Positions 40,934 to 44,929 of a stretch of 64,000 nt of DNA are shown here, piece by piece (the stretch's first letter is position 1; every line of letters begins with the position of its first letter). The stretch comes from Haloarcula taiwanensis. Lineage in GTDB: Archaea > Halobacteriota > Halobacteria > Halobacteriales > Haloarculaceae. Location: positions 372,001-436,000 of the forward strand of contig CP019154.1 of the NCBI GenBank assembly GCA_002844335.1, in the 5' to 3' direction. The position numbers were made by a program, and so were the translations under genes. The notes beneath the pieces were generated by a model. That model saw nothing but the letters and a program-made list of their open reading frames with translations. It did no database searches and was not told the DNA's origin.

Positions 40934-42483
40934 GCACACTCAAGGAAAACTGGCGCGTCGTTGCGCTGGTCACGCTGTTGCTACTCAGCGCCATTGCGCT
41001 GTTCGTCCCCGGCGTTCCGCCAGGGACCTCGGATACTGAAGGGGCCGGGGCCGCCGACCAATCGACGAACCTCCAGTACGGCATCCAGTTGAGTGGCGGC
41101 ACACGCATCCAGGCACCAATCGTCGGTACCACTGCGGAAGGTGTGGATGTTGCGCCCGCGGATGAGACGGCCCTCGAACAGTCCGTCTCGAACCGACTTG
41201 GCGTCGATTCAATCGACGTACGCGCCTCGAATCGGACTGAAACCGTCGAAGTGTTTGCGAGGAACGTCAGCGAGTCGGACGTCCAGTCCGCGCTCGAAGC
41301 CGAGGGGTACGAACCAAGCGAGGTCCGGTCCGGCGTGACCCGGGAGACCCGCGAAAATATGGTATCGGTCATCAACGACAAACTGCGGGAATCAGCCCTG
41401 ACCGGTGGTTCTGTCCAGCAGGTAAGTTCTCCTGGCGGTCGGAGTTTCATTAGCGTCACGGCCCCGGACAGGGGGCGTGAGGAACTCATCGGCCTGCTCG
41501 AAGAACGGGGTGTCGTCCGCGTGTACGCCGTTCACGATAACACTGAGAATGGATCCTACGTCCGCGAAGAGGTTCTTTCGCAGGAGGATCTGCGGGCCGG
41601 ATCAGCGCAGCGAAGCGAAACGCAGGGAACGCACGTCCCGGTGACGGTCAAACAGAGCGCCGCCGAGCGTTACGCGAACGACATGGTCGAGGCCGGCTTC
41701 GGTAGCGGGTCGACCTGCCGTCGCTCGGATTACGACCACGATAACCTCCAGAACTCGCAGGCAGACTGTCTGGTGACGACGCTGAACGGCGAACCGGTGT
41801 TCGTCGGCGGCGTCGACCCGGGACTTGGCCAGTCCTACCAGAACGGTGAGTTCGTCAACAACCCGCAGTTCATCATGCGGACCAGCAATATGTCCGAGGC
41901 GACCGAGCTGGAACTCGCGCTGAAGGCCGGCCGGCTGCCGGCTCCGCTCAACTTCGACAACGCCGAAAGCCAGACGCTCTCGTCTGCGCTCGCTCAGGAG
42001 TTCCAGCAGCGCTCCCTCCTGACGGGCATTCTCGCCGTCATCGCGGTGAGTCTGGTAGTGTATCTCCGGTACGGGCGTCCCGAGGTCGCCCTGCCGATGA
42101 TCGTCACGGCGCTGTCGGAGGTGTTCATCCTCCTCGGGTTCGTCGCCTTCGTCCAGTATCCGCTGAACCTCTCGCATCTGGCCGGGTTCATCGCGGTCAT
42201 CGGCACGGGGGTGGACGACCTCATTATCATCGCCGACGAGATACTTCAACAGGGGAAAGTCGAGACCGGACGCGTGTTCCAGAGTCGCTTCCGCAAGGCG
42301 TTCTGGGTCATCGGCGCGGCCGCAGCGACGACCATCGTCGCCATGAGTCCGCTGATGGTCCTCTCTCTGGGCGACCTCTCCGGGTTCGCCATCATCACAA
42401 TCGTCGGCGTGCTGGTCGGGGTTCTGGTGACACGGCCGGCCTACGGTGATATCCTTCGGAGTCTCGTGCTGGACGAGGACTGA
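40930..42483 (+). CDS. secD: protein translocase subunit SecD
   Basis: 517 residues, six helices, with a large external domain (about residues 40-360) and the conserved GTGVDDLIIIADE block near residue 425. It is translationally coupled to secF. The gene is followed by a T6 run and then by a separate folded RNA. Confidence 0.95.
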   Translation: MSTLKENWRVVALVTLLLLSAIALFVPGVPPGTSDTEGAGAADQSTNLQYGIQLSGGTRIQAPIVGTTAEGVDVAPADETALEQSVSNRLGVDSIDVRASNRTETVEVFARNVSESDVQSALEAEGYEPSEVRSGVTRETRENMVSVINDKLRESALTGGSVQQVSSPGGRSFISVTAPDRGREELIGLLEERGVVRVYAVHDNTENGSYVREEVLSQEDLRAGSAQRSETQGTHVPVTVKQSAAERYANDMVEAGFGSGSTCRRSDYDHDNLQNSQADCLVTTLNGEPVFVGGVDPGLGQSYQNGEFVNNPQFIMRTSNMSEATELELALKAGRLPAPLNFDNAESQTLSSALAQEFQQRSLLTGILAVIAVSLVVYLRYGRPEVALPMIVTALSEVFILLGFVAFVQYPLNLSHLAGFIAVIGTGVDDLIIIADEILQQGKVETGRVFQSRFRKAFWVIGAAAATTIVAMSPLMVLSLGDLSGFAIITIVGVLVGVLVTRPAYGDILRSLVLDED

Positions 42484-42497
42484 CCGCCCGCGGCCCG

Positions 42498-42503
42498 TTT
42501 TTT
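42498..42503 (+). terminator. T-run after secD
   Basis: T6 15 bases after the secD stop, preceded by the GC-rich CGCCCGCGGCCCG. It should end the secFD transcript and makes the following RNA an independent unit. Confidence 0.6.
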
Positions 42504-42555: not shown

Positions 42556-42575
42556 TCTTTTAGATTGACTTATTA
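42556..42575 (+). promoter_or_regulatory. AT-rich promoter of the folded RNA
   Basis: TCTTTTAGAT and TTATTAT lie just before the folded RNA and are the only AT-rich block in this gap. Depending on which is used, the transcript would begin near 42587 or 42600. Confidence 0.5.
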
Positions 42576-42586
42576 TCCAGCAGGTC

Positions 42587-42963
42587 CAAGCTACACATCC
42601 CGCCAGATGCGGGGAGCCATCGGACGACGGGTCTCAGACTGTCCACACAGGACGGAACAGGACGCGTTGGGGGCAACAACCGAGCGGTCCGTCAAACGAC
42701 TCCGAGGTGAACGCTCCGAAGGAGAACCGAAACAGCCCACCGCCGGCCCGGCCGGCCGGACCGGTGCGAAGGCCAACTACCGGATGTCACGTAAGTGGCG
42801 TTCGGGAATCCAGCACATCGACAAAACCCGGTGCGAGCCCGGGTAAAGCCCGAGAGGGCGAGGCCGGTGCAAGTCCGGCTACAGTCGGACACGTGCTGGA
42901 AGGGCCGTACGGGCTGTGGAAAACAGCTCCCGTCCGACTCCAAGCCGCGTCTGCGGGGATTTT
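42587..42963 (+). ncRNA. strongly folded probable non-coding RNA
   Basis: About 375 bases between convergent secD and rnhB with no supportable reading frame. Hairpins seen by eye: 42599-42613 (CCCGC/GCGGG), 42641-42653 (GTCC/GGAC), 42666-42677 (GTTG/CAAC), 42714-42724 (CTCC/GGAG with loop GAA), 42826-42844 (ACCCGG/CCGGGT, loop TGCGAGC), 42848-42859 (GCCC/GGGC, GNRA-type loop GAGA), 42863-42879 (GCCGG/CCGGC, loop TGCAAGT), 42945-42956 (CCGC/GCGG) followed by TTTT. A 7-base helix, 42884-42890 with 42932-42938, encloses a further stem (GCTGT/ACAGC). The two 7-base loops fit the T-loop pattern. It lacks the signature sequences of RNase P and SRP RNA. Family unknown to me; a degenerate group II intron or novel riboregulator is possible. 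Confidence 0.6.
42945..42963 (+). terminator. hairpin and T4 at the end of the folded RNA
   Basis: CCGC/GCGG with loop GTCT, then GGATTTT. It lies a few bases before the rnhB stop on the other strand and fits the 3' end of the RNA. Confidence 0.45.
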
Positions 42964-42969
42964 CGGTAT

Positions 42970-43605
42970 TCAGAACTCGCCCAGCGACGCCTGTTCCGCC
43001 GCGGCCAGCACGTCGTCACACGTCGACCACGACCGACGAGCACACGCCGGTAGCTCGCCGTGGCGCTCGACGTAGTCCGCCAGGAACGCTCGCGTCGTCG
43101 GGTCGCTGGGGTAGCCCGACCCCACGTCGCCGTACTCACCGGCCAGGTCCGCGACGTGTGTGTCACGGGCCACCTTCGCAATAATCGAGGCCGCGCCGAC
43201 CACCGGGTCCGTCTCGTCGGCCCCGTGTTCTGCCCGCACGGTTACGTCGGCGTCGACCGCCTCCGCGACCCGGTGGCCGAACCGCACCGCGTCGGTGTCA
43301 CCGGCGTCGACCATGCCCGACAGGTCGTCTCGGGCCACTTCTGAGAGTGCCGCTGCCTGCCCCTCAACAGTCAGCGTGTTCATGTCCGTCCCGTCGGCGT
43401 CGATGCGTTCGACCGGAATCTCGGCGACGCCGACAGCGTCTGCCAACTCGCGGATTTCCTCGGCTAACCGTTCGCGTCGCTCCGGTCTGATGTCTTTCGA
43501 GTCACCAACACCATCGGGTAGGACTGCTGGGTCGGCCCTGACAGCAGCGGCGAACATCGACCCCAGAACCGGCCCTTTGCCGGCCTCGTCGACGCCAAAT
43601 TGCAT
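42970..43605 (-). CDS. rnhB: ribonuclease HII
   Basis: Removes RNA from RNA/DNA hybrids. From ATG 43605 (MQFGVDEAGKGPVLG) it has 211 residues. The catalytic Asp and Glu are in the DEAGKG motif at residues 6-11. Later acidic residues are in AEHGADETDP and the conserved ASIIAKVARD. A GTG at 43614 adds three residues and is less likely. Confidence 0.95.
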   Translation of the reverse strand: MQFGVDEAGKGPVLGSMFAAAVRADPAVLPDGVGDSKDIRPERRERLAEEIRELADAVGVAEIPVERIDADGTDMNTLTVEGQAAALSEVARDDLSGMVDAGDTDAVRFGHRVAEAVDADVTVRAEHGADETDPVVGAASIIAKVARDTHVADLAGEYGDVGSGYPSDPTTRAFLADYVERHGELPACARRSWSTCDDVLAAAEQASLGEF

Positions 43606-43645: not shown

Positions 43646-44803
43646 CTAGTTGTTGGGGCCGCGTCCCTTCCCGCCCGGTGGGTTCCGGAGAAACGGTTCG
43701 AAGTCGACGTTGCCGACGACGTCGCTCCGGTCGTCGTCGTCCGCGTCTTGGTTGAAATCGGCTTCTTCTGGCCCCTCGGGACTACCCCAGTAGTTGTTCT
43801 TCGCGTCGACCTGTGGGTCGCTCGACGGGTCGCGATTCCCGTTGTCAGTCCCGTTCCGGTTGTTCAGCCCGACCGCGACCAGCAACTGGTTCGCCCGGAC
43901 GGTCAGGCCACCGCCGTCGCCGTCGACTTTGATTGCTTCCGGGAGAATCGTCTCCGCGCTCGTGACGTCCTCGATGATGTTGTGGGCGAGAGTCGTCTCG
44001 CTCGTCGCGGGCGACGCGATGTTGATACCCTGTGCGAACGTGAAGCCGAAGTCCACGTCGTCGGACGGGTCGGAGTCGGTATCGTCCGCGGCTACGAGGT
44101 CCCGTATCTCGTTGTTGTTGATGTCGACGCCGTCGGTCTCGTGCTGGACGACGATGCCGAGCGGCGCGATGTCGCTCTCGATGTCCCGAATCGTGTTGTT
44201 GTTGACCGTCGTGTCGCTCACAGTGCCGGGGCCGCTGTTGTCGGCGTCGAAGAGCACCCCGTTGACCGTCGGGAACCCCGAATCGTCCGTCGTTTCCTGG
44301 TCGAGGTTCTGAATCGTGTTGTTCACGATCTCGATGCCCGAGTGGTCGCCCTGGCCGACGACGACGCCGGTCACGCCGAGGCGACCGGTCGGACCGACGT
44401 CTTCGATTGTGTTGTTGCTGATAGCCGCGTCGTCACGTCCGCGCTCGACTTTCACGCCGAGCAATCCACCCGGATTCGTGACGGTGAACCCGTCGAGCGT
44501 GACGCCGTCCGACTCGATGCCCACCGCCGCGCCGATCCCGCCGTCGCCCTCGATTGTCGGACTCGCGCTCGCCTCGATTGTGACCTCGGCGTCGACGGTG
44601 ACGGGGTCGTACACCGCCGAGTCGACGACTGTCAGCGTCTCGCCGTCGCTCGCGGCGTCGATGGCCGACTGGAGCGCGTCGCCGCCCCCGGACACCGTCG
44701 TCGCCGCGCTCGCTGTGCCCACTGTCAATCCCAGCACGCCGGCCGCGACTGTCCCGTGGCGTAACACCGCTCGTCGTGAAAACGTGGTCTGCTTTCGTGT
44801 CAT
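43646..44803 (-). CDS. exported right-handed beta-helix protein
   Basis: A 385-residue Tat-exported protein (SRRAVLRHG, cleaved near GTASAATT). The body has repeated parallel beta-helix coils with NNTI/NNEI steps (ISNNTIEDVG, IVNNTIQNLD, VNNNTIRDIE, INNNEIRDL). The C-terminus holds the NNYWGSPEGP signature common in PbH1 proteins of haloarchaea, then an acidic aspartate run. It probably binds or cuts polysaccharide at the cell surface; no catalytic set can be named. Confidence 0.88.
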   Translation of the reverse strand: MTRKQTTFSRRAVLRHGTVAAGVLGLTVGTASAATTVSGGGDALQSAIDAASDGETLTVVDSAVYDPVTVDAEVTIEASASPTIEGDGGIGAAVGIESDGVTLDGFTVTNPGGLLGVKVERGRDDAAISNNTIEDVGPTGRLGVTGVVVGQGDHSGIEIVNNTIQNLDQETTDDSGFPTVNGVLFDADNSGPGTVSDTTVNNNTIRDIESDIAPLGIVVQHETDGVDINNNEIRDLVAADDTDSDPSDDVDFGFTFAQGINIASPATSETTLAHNIIEDVTSAETILPEAIKVDGDGGGLTVRANQLLVAVGLNNRNGTDNGNRDPSSDPQVDAKNNYWGSPEGPEEADFNQDADDDDRSDVVGNVDFEPFLRNPPGGKGRGPNN

Positions 44804-44929
44804 GGTGTCTCCCGCAGCACCGTTGATATATCCGGGGCCGAATAAAATAGAGCGACAGTTCACGACCGTTTCGTCTATAGTGACCTCCTACTGTGACGCC
44901 GGTACGACGGCGCTGCCAGTAGCAGGCTG

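Follow-up and report, generated by a model that had tools for sequence, protein, structure and literature searches.

What occupies the 486 bases that separate the end of secD (position 42483) from the end of rnhB (minus strand, position 42970) in the window, the whole 64,000-nucleotide stretch of DNA analysed here? A first-pass annotation had read positions 42587–42963 as an independently transcribed, structured RNA, new or poorly described in haloarchaea. The plus strand of this interval folds with −181.4 kcal/mol (z = −5.25), a value that none of 100 dinucleotide shuffles equals, whereas z is only −2.8 for the minus strand. Together with strong covariation in homologues, this bears out the structured RNA, which is present as a single copy in the genome. 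A run of six Ts does lie 3′ of secD, at 42498–42503, as had been noted. The position between convergent secD and rnhB is true for the window's genus, but other genera have different neighbours, and we therefore do not regard this context as a conserved feature. No conserved reading frame is apparent, and homologues are separated by indels (no formal test). Downstream of rnhB, an open reading frame at 43646–44863 carries a twin-arginine-like signal and repeats suggesting a secreted parallel β-helix protein, as judged by eye only.

The RNA is built around a closing helix, P1, that joins both ends and encloses P2, inside which lie the P3 hairpin, the P4/P5 stem-loop and the nested helices P6, P7 and P10 with hairpins P8 and P9, as well as P11. 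The parts of the gene, in window coordinates, are as follows.

42562–42576, plus strand: predicted promoter, TATA-box region (TTATTAT at 42570–42576); across 50 homologous loci, AT content peaks at 80–86% between −45 and −42 relative to the GGAC anchor.
42595–42963, plus strand: structured RNA of ~370 nt; fold z-score, match to covariance model R1 at 42665–42809 (151.8 bits) and covariation.
42597–42616, plus strand: P1 5′ strand, closing helix, with GGAG at 42613–42616; P1a/P1b paired in 96–99.5% of cells, with 30 and 17 both-side changes.
42620–42626, plus strand: P2 5′ strand, UCGGACG; 98% paired, both-side changes in 5/7 pairs.
42627–42666, plus strand: P3 hairpin, of species-variable length (alignment).
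42668–42719, plus strand: P4/P5a/P5b stem-loop domain with conserved loop GUNANA; covariation and slid-partner control.
42721–42724, plus strand: P6 5′ strand, GGAG, partner CUCC at 42927–42930; 96% paired, 10 both-side changes versus 0.6 in shuffles.
42732–42738, plus strand: P7 5′ strand, partner at 42911–42917; 94% paired, 65 both-side changes versus 17.8 in shuffles.
42741–42766, plus strand: P8 hairpin; 152 both-side changes versus 51.6.
42771–42774, plus strand: P10 5′ strand, GGCC, partner GGCC at 42903–42906; 17 both-side changes versus 4.8, for example GACC/GGUC.
42781–42804, plus strand: P9 hairpin; 110 both-side changes versus 27.4.
42810–42899, plus strand: P11 and variable domain, ranging from a GNRA-type tip to more than 200 nt in other species (alignment, domain lengths).
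42826–42844, plus strand: T-loop hairpin 1, ACCCGG UGCGAGC CCGGGU (motif count in homologues).
42862–42880, plus strand: T-loop hairpin 2, GGCCGG UGCAAGU CCGGCU (motif count in homologues).
42918–42926, plus strand: conserved unpaired joiner GGAAAACAG; near-invariant GGAAAAC in homologues and recognisable in a second class.
42931–42937, plus strand: P2 3′ strand, CGUCCGA (covariation).
42938–42959, plus strand: P1 3′ strand; covariation as for the 5′ strand.
42960–42963, plus strand: terminal U-run, likely terminator (sequence).

Helices were evaluated in 62 homologues, or in 50 where the helix requires the 5′ end. The long-range helices covary, with P1a paired in 96%, P1b in 99.5%, P2 in 98%, P6 in 96%, P7 in 94% and P10 in 91.5%, and P1, P2, P6, P7 and P10 all lie outside the model used for alignment. 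Among the best supported is P2, the seven-base-pair long-range helix already recognised in the first pass, with 25 both-side changes versus 5.5 in shuffles. The local helices P5a, P5b, P8 and P9 are paired in 84–94% and P4 in 82%, all exceeding every shuffle; these scores lean on an alignment fitted to the same helices. In a MAFFT alignment of 24 sequences that was not fitted to structure, shifting each partner by a single base lowers pairing from 88% to below 48%. Absence of the helices from close relatives would have refuted the RNA; instead, homologues exist and their helices covary.

The AT peak holds a fixed upstream distance in the 50 homologous loci, and from this the start is predicted to lie at the P1 base. 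Since the U-run directly follows P1 in the window, the predicted transcription unit comprises the folded RNA only. The AT-rich promoter described earlier is thereby upheld as a prediction supported by comparison of loci, whereas transcription itself remains inferred, there being no transcript data. The 3′ hairpin with TTTT that the RNA was said to own is correct as to the TTTT, but these bases follow the closing helix P1 and not a separate hairpin.

Does the RNA belong to a known family? With Rfam 15 at gathering thresholds, no match was obtained anywhere in the window, and the relaxed matches of three family members are weak or at chance level, so a known family, which would also have overturned the claim of novelty, is not indicated. 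The RNA was said to lack the signatures of RNase P and SRP RNA, and this is correct. No RNase P model matches at E ≤ 10 in the window or at E ≤ 5 in two homologues, and the true RF00373 copy is at C1:240711; likewise there is no RF01857 match here, and a 209-bit copy of SRP (7S) RNA is found elsewhere, at C1:1840892. A group II intron was rejected in the absence of an Intron_gpII match at E ≤ 10 in the window; the GGCCGUACGG...GGAAAAC element, which by eye looks like domain V, pairs instead in the covarying long-range helices P10, P7, P6 and P2. Archaeal C/D box guide RNAs carry RUGAUGA and CUGA boxes and measure ~60 nt. Direct reading of 42587–42963 finds no TGATGA, and the conserved fold spans ~370 nt. 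The best relaxed match, to the Twister-sister ribozyme (RF02681; E = 0.048, 22 versus 34 bits gathering), falls below threshold and rests largely on one GGUGCAAGUCC hairpin (GGUGCAAGYCC, a T-loop hairpin); the likeness is confined to the variable domain and is absent from the conserved core. Comparative evidence therefore supports an undescribed family without an Rfam counterpart. Searches of the open literature yielded no other description, with subscription papers outside the scope, and an earlier name, for example a numbered H. volcanii sRNA, is not excluded.

A DNA search recovered relatives in 39/116 genomes of the window's family. R1, a covariance model built on the 145-nt core, whose seed includes the window sequence itself, matches 108 of 391 Halobacteria genomes in 41/86 genera, or ~107 once a false positive is removed (G395, E = 8e-4, which sits in an apparent coiled-coil coding sequence). 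A scan of the phylum (393 genomes) gave five matches outside Halobacteria. Three of these have E < 1e-6, fall in one small class, suspected to be Methanonatronarchaeia, and come from genomes that all encode the protein HARP considered below; the other two are marginal, at chance level (E near 0.01 or 0.002), and their genomes lack HARP. In this second class the RNA occurs in 3/3 genomes examined, with the core AACCGCAGCAACCCA...AAGGCCAAGUAAC kept in 2/3 and a close variant in the third, and with GAAAA in the 3′ joiner in 3/3. A genome-wide scan with a degenerate 19-mer pattern lacked specificity, most of its matches being in unrelated bacteria. Phages gave no match to the RNA, and viral contigs gave none to the exact conserved 20-mer or to HARP. 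Among 72,556 plasmids, BLAST found a single match to the window RNA, on a Halorussus caseinilyticus plasmid ~360 bp from a gene annotated 'RNA ligase partner protein'. On these searches virus or plasmid cargo was rejected; the sole plasmid match adjoins HARP.

What, then, does the RNA travel with? The gene repeatedly found beside it is PF08745 (PIN_5)/TIGR03875, 'RNA ligase partner', the family called HARP, a protein-only RNase P homologue. HARP has true matches in 161 of the 391 Halobacteria genomes (162 over the cut-off). Of these genomes, 101 have both the RNA and HARP, 7 only the RNA, 60 only HARP and 223 neither, so that HARP is present in 101/108 RNA-positive versus 60/283 RNA-negative genomes (Fisher p ~1e-41; the 108 include the false match G395). 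Because the genomes are related, this p-value overstates the significance. The seven exceptions with RNA only comprise the false match, four genomes that are 82–89% complete and two genuine cases. The latter, G002 and G160, are near-complete and have good RNA matches (L281:8028-8157 and L280:8038-8168) without HARP; whether they reflect a recent loss of HARP or another function of the RNA is undecided. Within the window's genus, the RNA is found in 10/17 HARP-positive and 0/7 HARP-negative genomes (p = 0.019). HARP has been reported in 9/20 Haloarcula (PMC12153264), in a study with 573 archaeal HARP instances.

The RNA adjoins HARP in at least seven genera of four families (g15, g30, g33, g54, g65, g73 and g8), in both divergent and convergent arrangements. 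In most genomes, that of the window included, hundreds of kb separate the two, or they lie on different contigs; in the window genome, HARP lies side by side with the RNA ligase Rnl3 at C1:2613538-2615375, 2.2 Mb from the RNA. Only 5 of the 72,556 plasmids encode HARP. The RNA adjoins it on two Halorussus plasmids, an RNA ligase adjoins it on the Natrinema and Halocatena plasmids, where no RNA was found, and neither is beside it on the Salinigranum plasmid. Co-occurrence with HARP and physical proximity in part of the genomes, the criteria used for the HARP–Rnl3 module, are both met. Co-retention and adjacency are supported by these comparisons, and we are confident, with little room for doubt, that the RNA is linked to HARP.

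The ligase offers a second candidate partner. A search with TIGR01209 in the same 391 genomes found Rnl3 in 121, none of them without HARP. The RNA is present in 39/40 HARP genomes without Rnl3 versus 62/121 with it (p ~1e-8), and the sole HARP genome that lacks both, G410, is 85% complete. Moreover, the RNA stands beside HARP mainly where Rnl3 is absent (g15, g30, g33, g54, g65 and g73; g8 is outside the set tested for Rnl3), and in g36 it lies 3′ of the ligase in a HARP–ligase pair. These counts and this placement indicate that the RNA follows HARP and not the ligase; Rnl3 as the primary partner is ruled out by the 39 RNA-positive HARP genomes that lack it. HARP without either companion is practically never seen. 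As HARP genomes without Rnl3 nearly always keep the RNA, the two look like alternative or cooperating ways to make HARP useful or safe, their interchangeability being inferred.

Around 59 genomes with HARP and Rnl3 have no detectable RNA (for example G005, G026 and G099), so HARP is not strictly dependent on it. Low search sensitivity does not explain why 60 HARP-positive genomes lack the RNA: when 39 of them were searched again with a wider model (R2) and laxer filters, nearly all remained negative. The best match of this second search (G200, E = 7e-10) is doubtful, since on visual inspection the conserved core elements are missing.

The connection with a ligase raises the possibility that the RNA is a processing substrate, its 5′ end trimmed by HARP and its P1-held ends joined by Rnl3 where present, yielding a circular or matured RNA with another job. 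In favour of this, the endonuclease HARP is associated with a ligase that circularises RNA, P1 joins both ends of the RNA, and the HARP–Rnl3 pair has been suggested to mature small RNAs at the 5′ end before they are circularised (PMC12153264). However, transcription beginning where the predicted promoter suggests, at the P1 base, would leave little or no leader to trim, the 39 genomes with RNA and HARP but no Rnl3 show that ligation cannot be general, and half of the HARP–Rnl3 genomes lack the RNA. We consider a substrate role unlikely, though still worth entertaining.

We incline instead, with limited assurance, to the reading that this is a ~370-nt noncoding RNA acting in trans as HARP's RNA partner, and the variable domain suggests how it might do so. 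Long forms of P11 carry hairpins of one kind, GG-UGNRANN-CC, whose stems vary between species yet pair. They match the T-loop of tRNA in U54, purine 57, A58 and the 7-nt loop, and they are strongly enriched, with 51 in 62 sequences versus 0.2 expected from dinucleotide shuffles. The first-pass annotation had noted neither these hairpins, nor the spread of the RNA, nor its link to HARP. Short forms of the RNA lack them, which rules out T-loops as a universal HARP-binding element and means that the conserved core must contribute to binding on its own. The P5b loop (GUNANA, 42690–42697) keeps a U and an A at the five-base spacing seen in a T-loop and might be a further such element, found also in short forms.

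Repetition extends to larger units. In two genomes of genus g89, six head-to-tail P7-P8-P10-P9-P11 modules, 113–128 nt apart, lie inside one P1-closed RNA (L188:8240-9270 and L189:7860-8900), which fits an oligomeric partner. Elsewhere, in one genome, the complete RNA occurs twice in tandem, at a spacing of 444 bp (L183:8003-8768). Second copies with the 5′ part degenerate or missing are seen at L187:7990-8205 and L220:8059-8311, the former flanked by sequence that we take to resemble an IS200/IS605-type end.

HARP grips the T-loop, or elbow, of tRNA. T-loop arrays and up to six repeats of one module are what would be expected of a multivalent ligand, and on this basis we propose that the RNA binds HARP oligomers. 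The central P7–P11 module would be the basic binding unit, the T-loop hairpins of long forms would mimic the tRNA elbow, and the bound RNA may sequester, license or redirect the HARP nuclease. In the absence of binding or phenotype data, binding, multivalency and any effect on activity are inferred, and we see such a mechanism of binding and regulation as evenly poised between right and wrong. A bolder version is that the RNA forms a ribonucleoprotein with this 'RNA-free' RNase P, mimics several tRNA elbows, organises HARP oligomers and can replace Rnl3, so that archaeal HARP would be RNA-dependent; this remains tentative, and on present evidence we would not expect it to hold in full.

The same linkage would also fit a guide or specificity cofactor, an RNA with which a HARP ribonucleoprotein cuts or handles RNAs other than pre-tRNA. 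Such a role would suit archaeal HARPs, which are not the housekeeping RNase P (PMC10941002), and conserved unpaired joiners such as GGAAAAC would stay accessible. Yet no variable guide segment is seen, the conserved unpaired bases being nearly constant between genera, and no target was found (without a systematic search), which makes a guide improbable. An independent function, with the RNA merely travelling with HARP or both responding to a shared lifestyle such as high salt, could draw on the distance between the two in most genomes, the two RNA-positive genomes without HARP and the RNA's presence in only 10/17 HARP-positive genomes of the window's genus. It is very hard to sustain, however: the main comparison comprises haloarchaea only, yet the RNA tracks HARP even within one genus, and chance does not come close to explaining an adjacency that recurs in several genera, in both orientations and on two plasmids.

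A partnership with HARP would bear on an unsettled enzyme. HARP is a second kind of RNA-free RNase P that coexists with the normal RNase P in archaea, where its function is described as unclear (PMC10941002, PMC12153264); Haloferax volcanii HARP knockouts grow normally (PMC12153264). A large conserved RNA retained with HARP provides a concrete molecule, a candidate partner, inhibitor or substrate, and hence a strong lead to HARP's job. In addition, Rfam lacks this structured RNA family, which is represented in two archaeal classes. If a HARP genome without Rnl3 can be relied on to carry the RNA, as in 39/40 cases here, further hosts can be predicted. One is Haloferax volcanii, in which HARP was found and Rnl3 was not, and for which the HARP knockout exists.

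Among known systems, the RNA antitoxins of type III toxin–antitoxin pairs are also structured, sometimes tandemly repeated and linked to a ribonuclease. The RNA described here is much larger, has a more elaborate fold and usually lies far from HARP; the type III criterion that RNA and toxin genes mostly be neighbours is thus not fulfilled, and HARP is not known to be toxic. Archaeal RNase P RNA (RF00373) is similar in size, in its closing helix P1, in its long-range helices and in its tie to tRNA 5′ processing, but the present RNA does not match RF00373 and its partner is a protein-only enzyme. The remaining comparison is with the HARP–Rnl3 module. An RNA partner of HARP is mentioned neither in the main text of PMC12153264 nor in the available part of the protein-only RNase P review PMC10941002. 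As published (Seshadri and Gopalan 2025, PMC12153264), the module consists of two proteins only; the RNA shares its patchy distribution and can occupy the ligase's usual place beside HARP.
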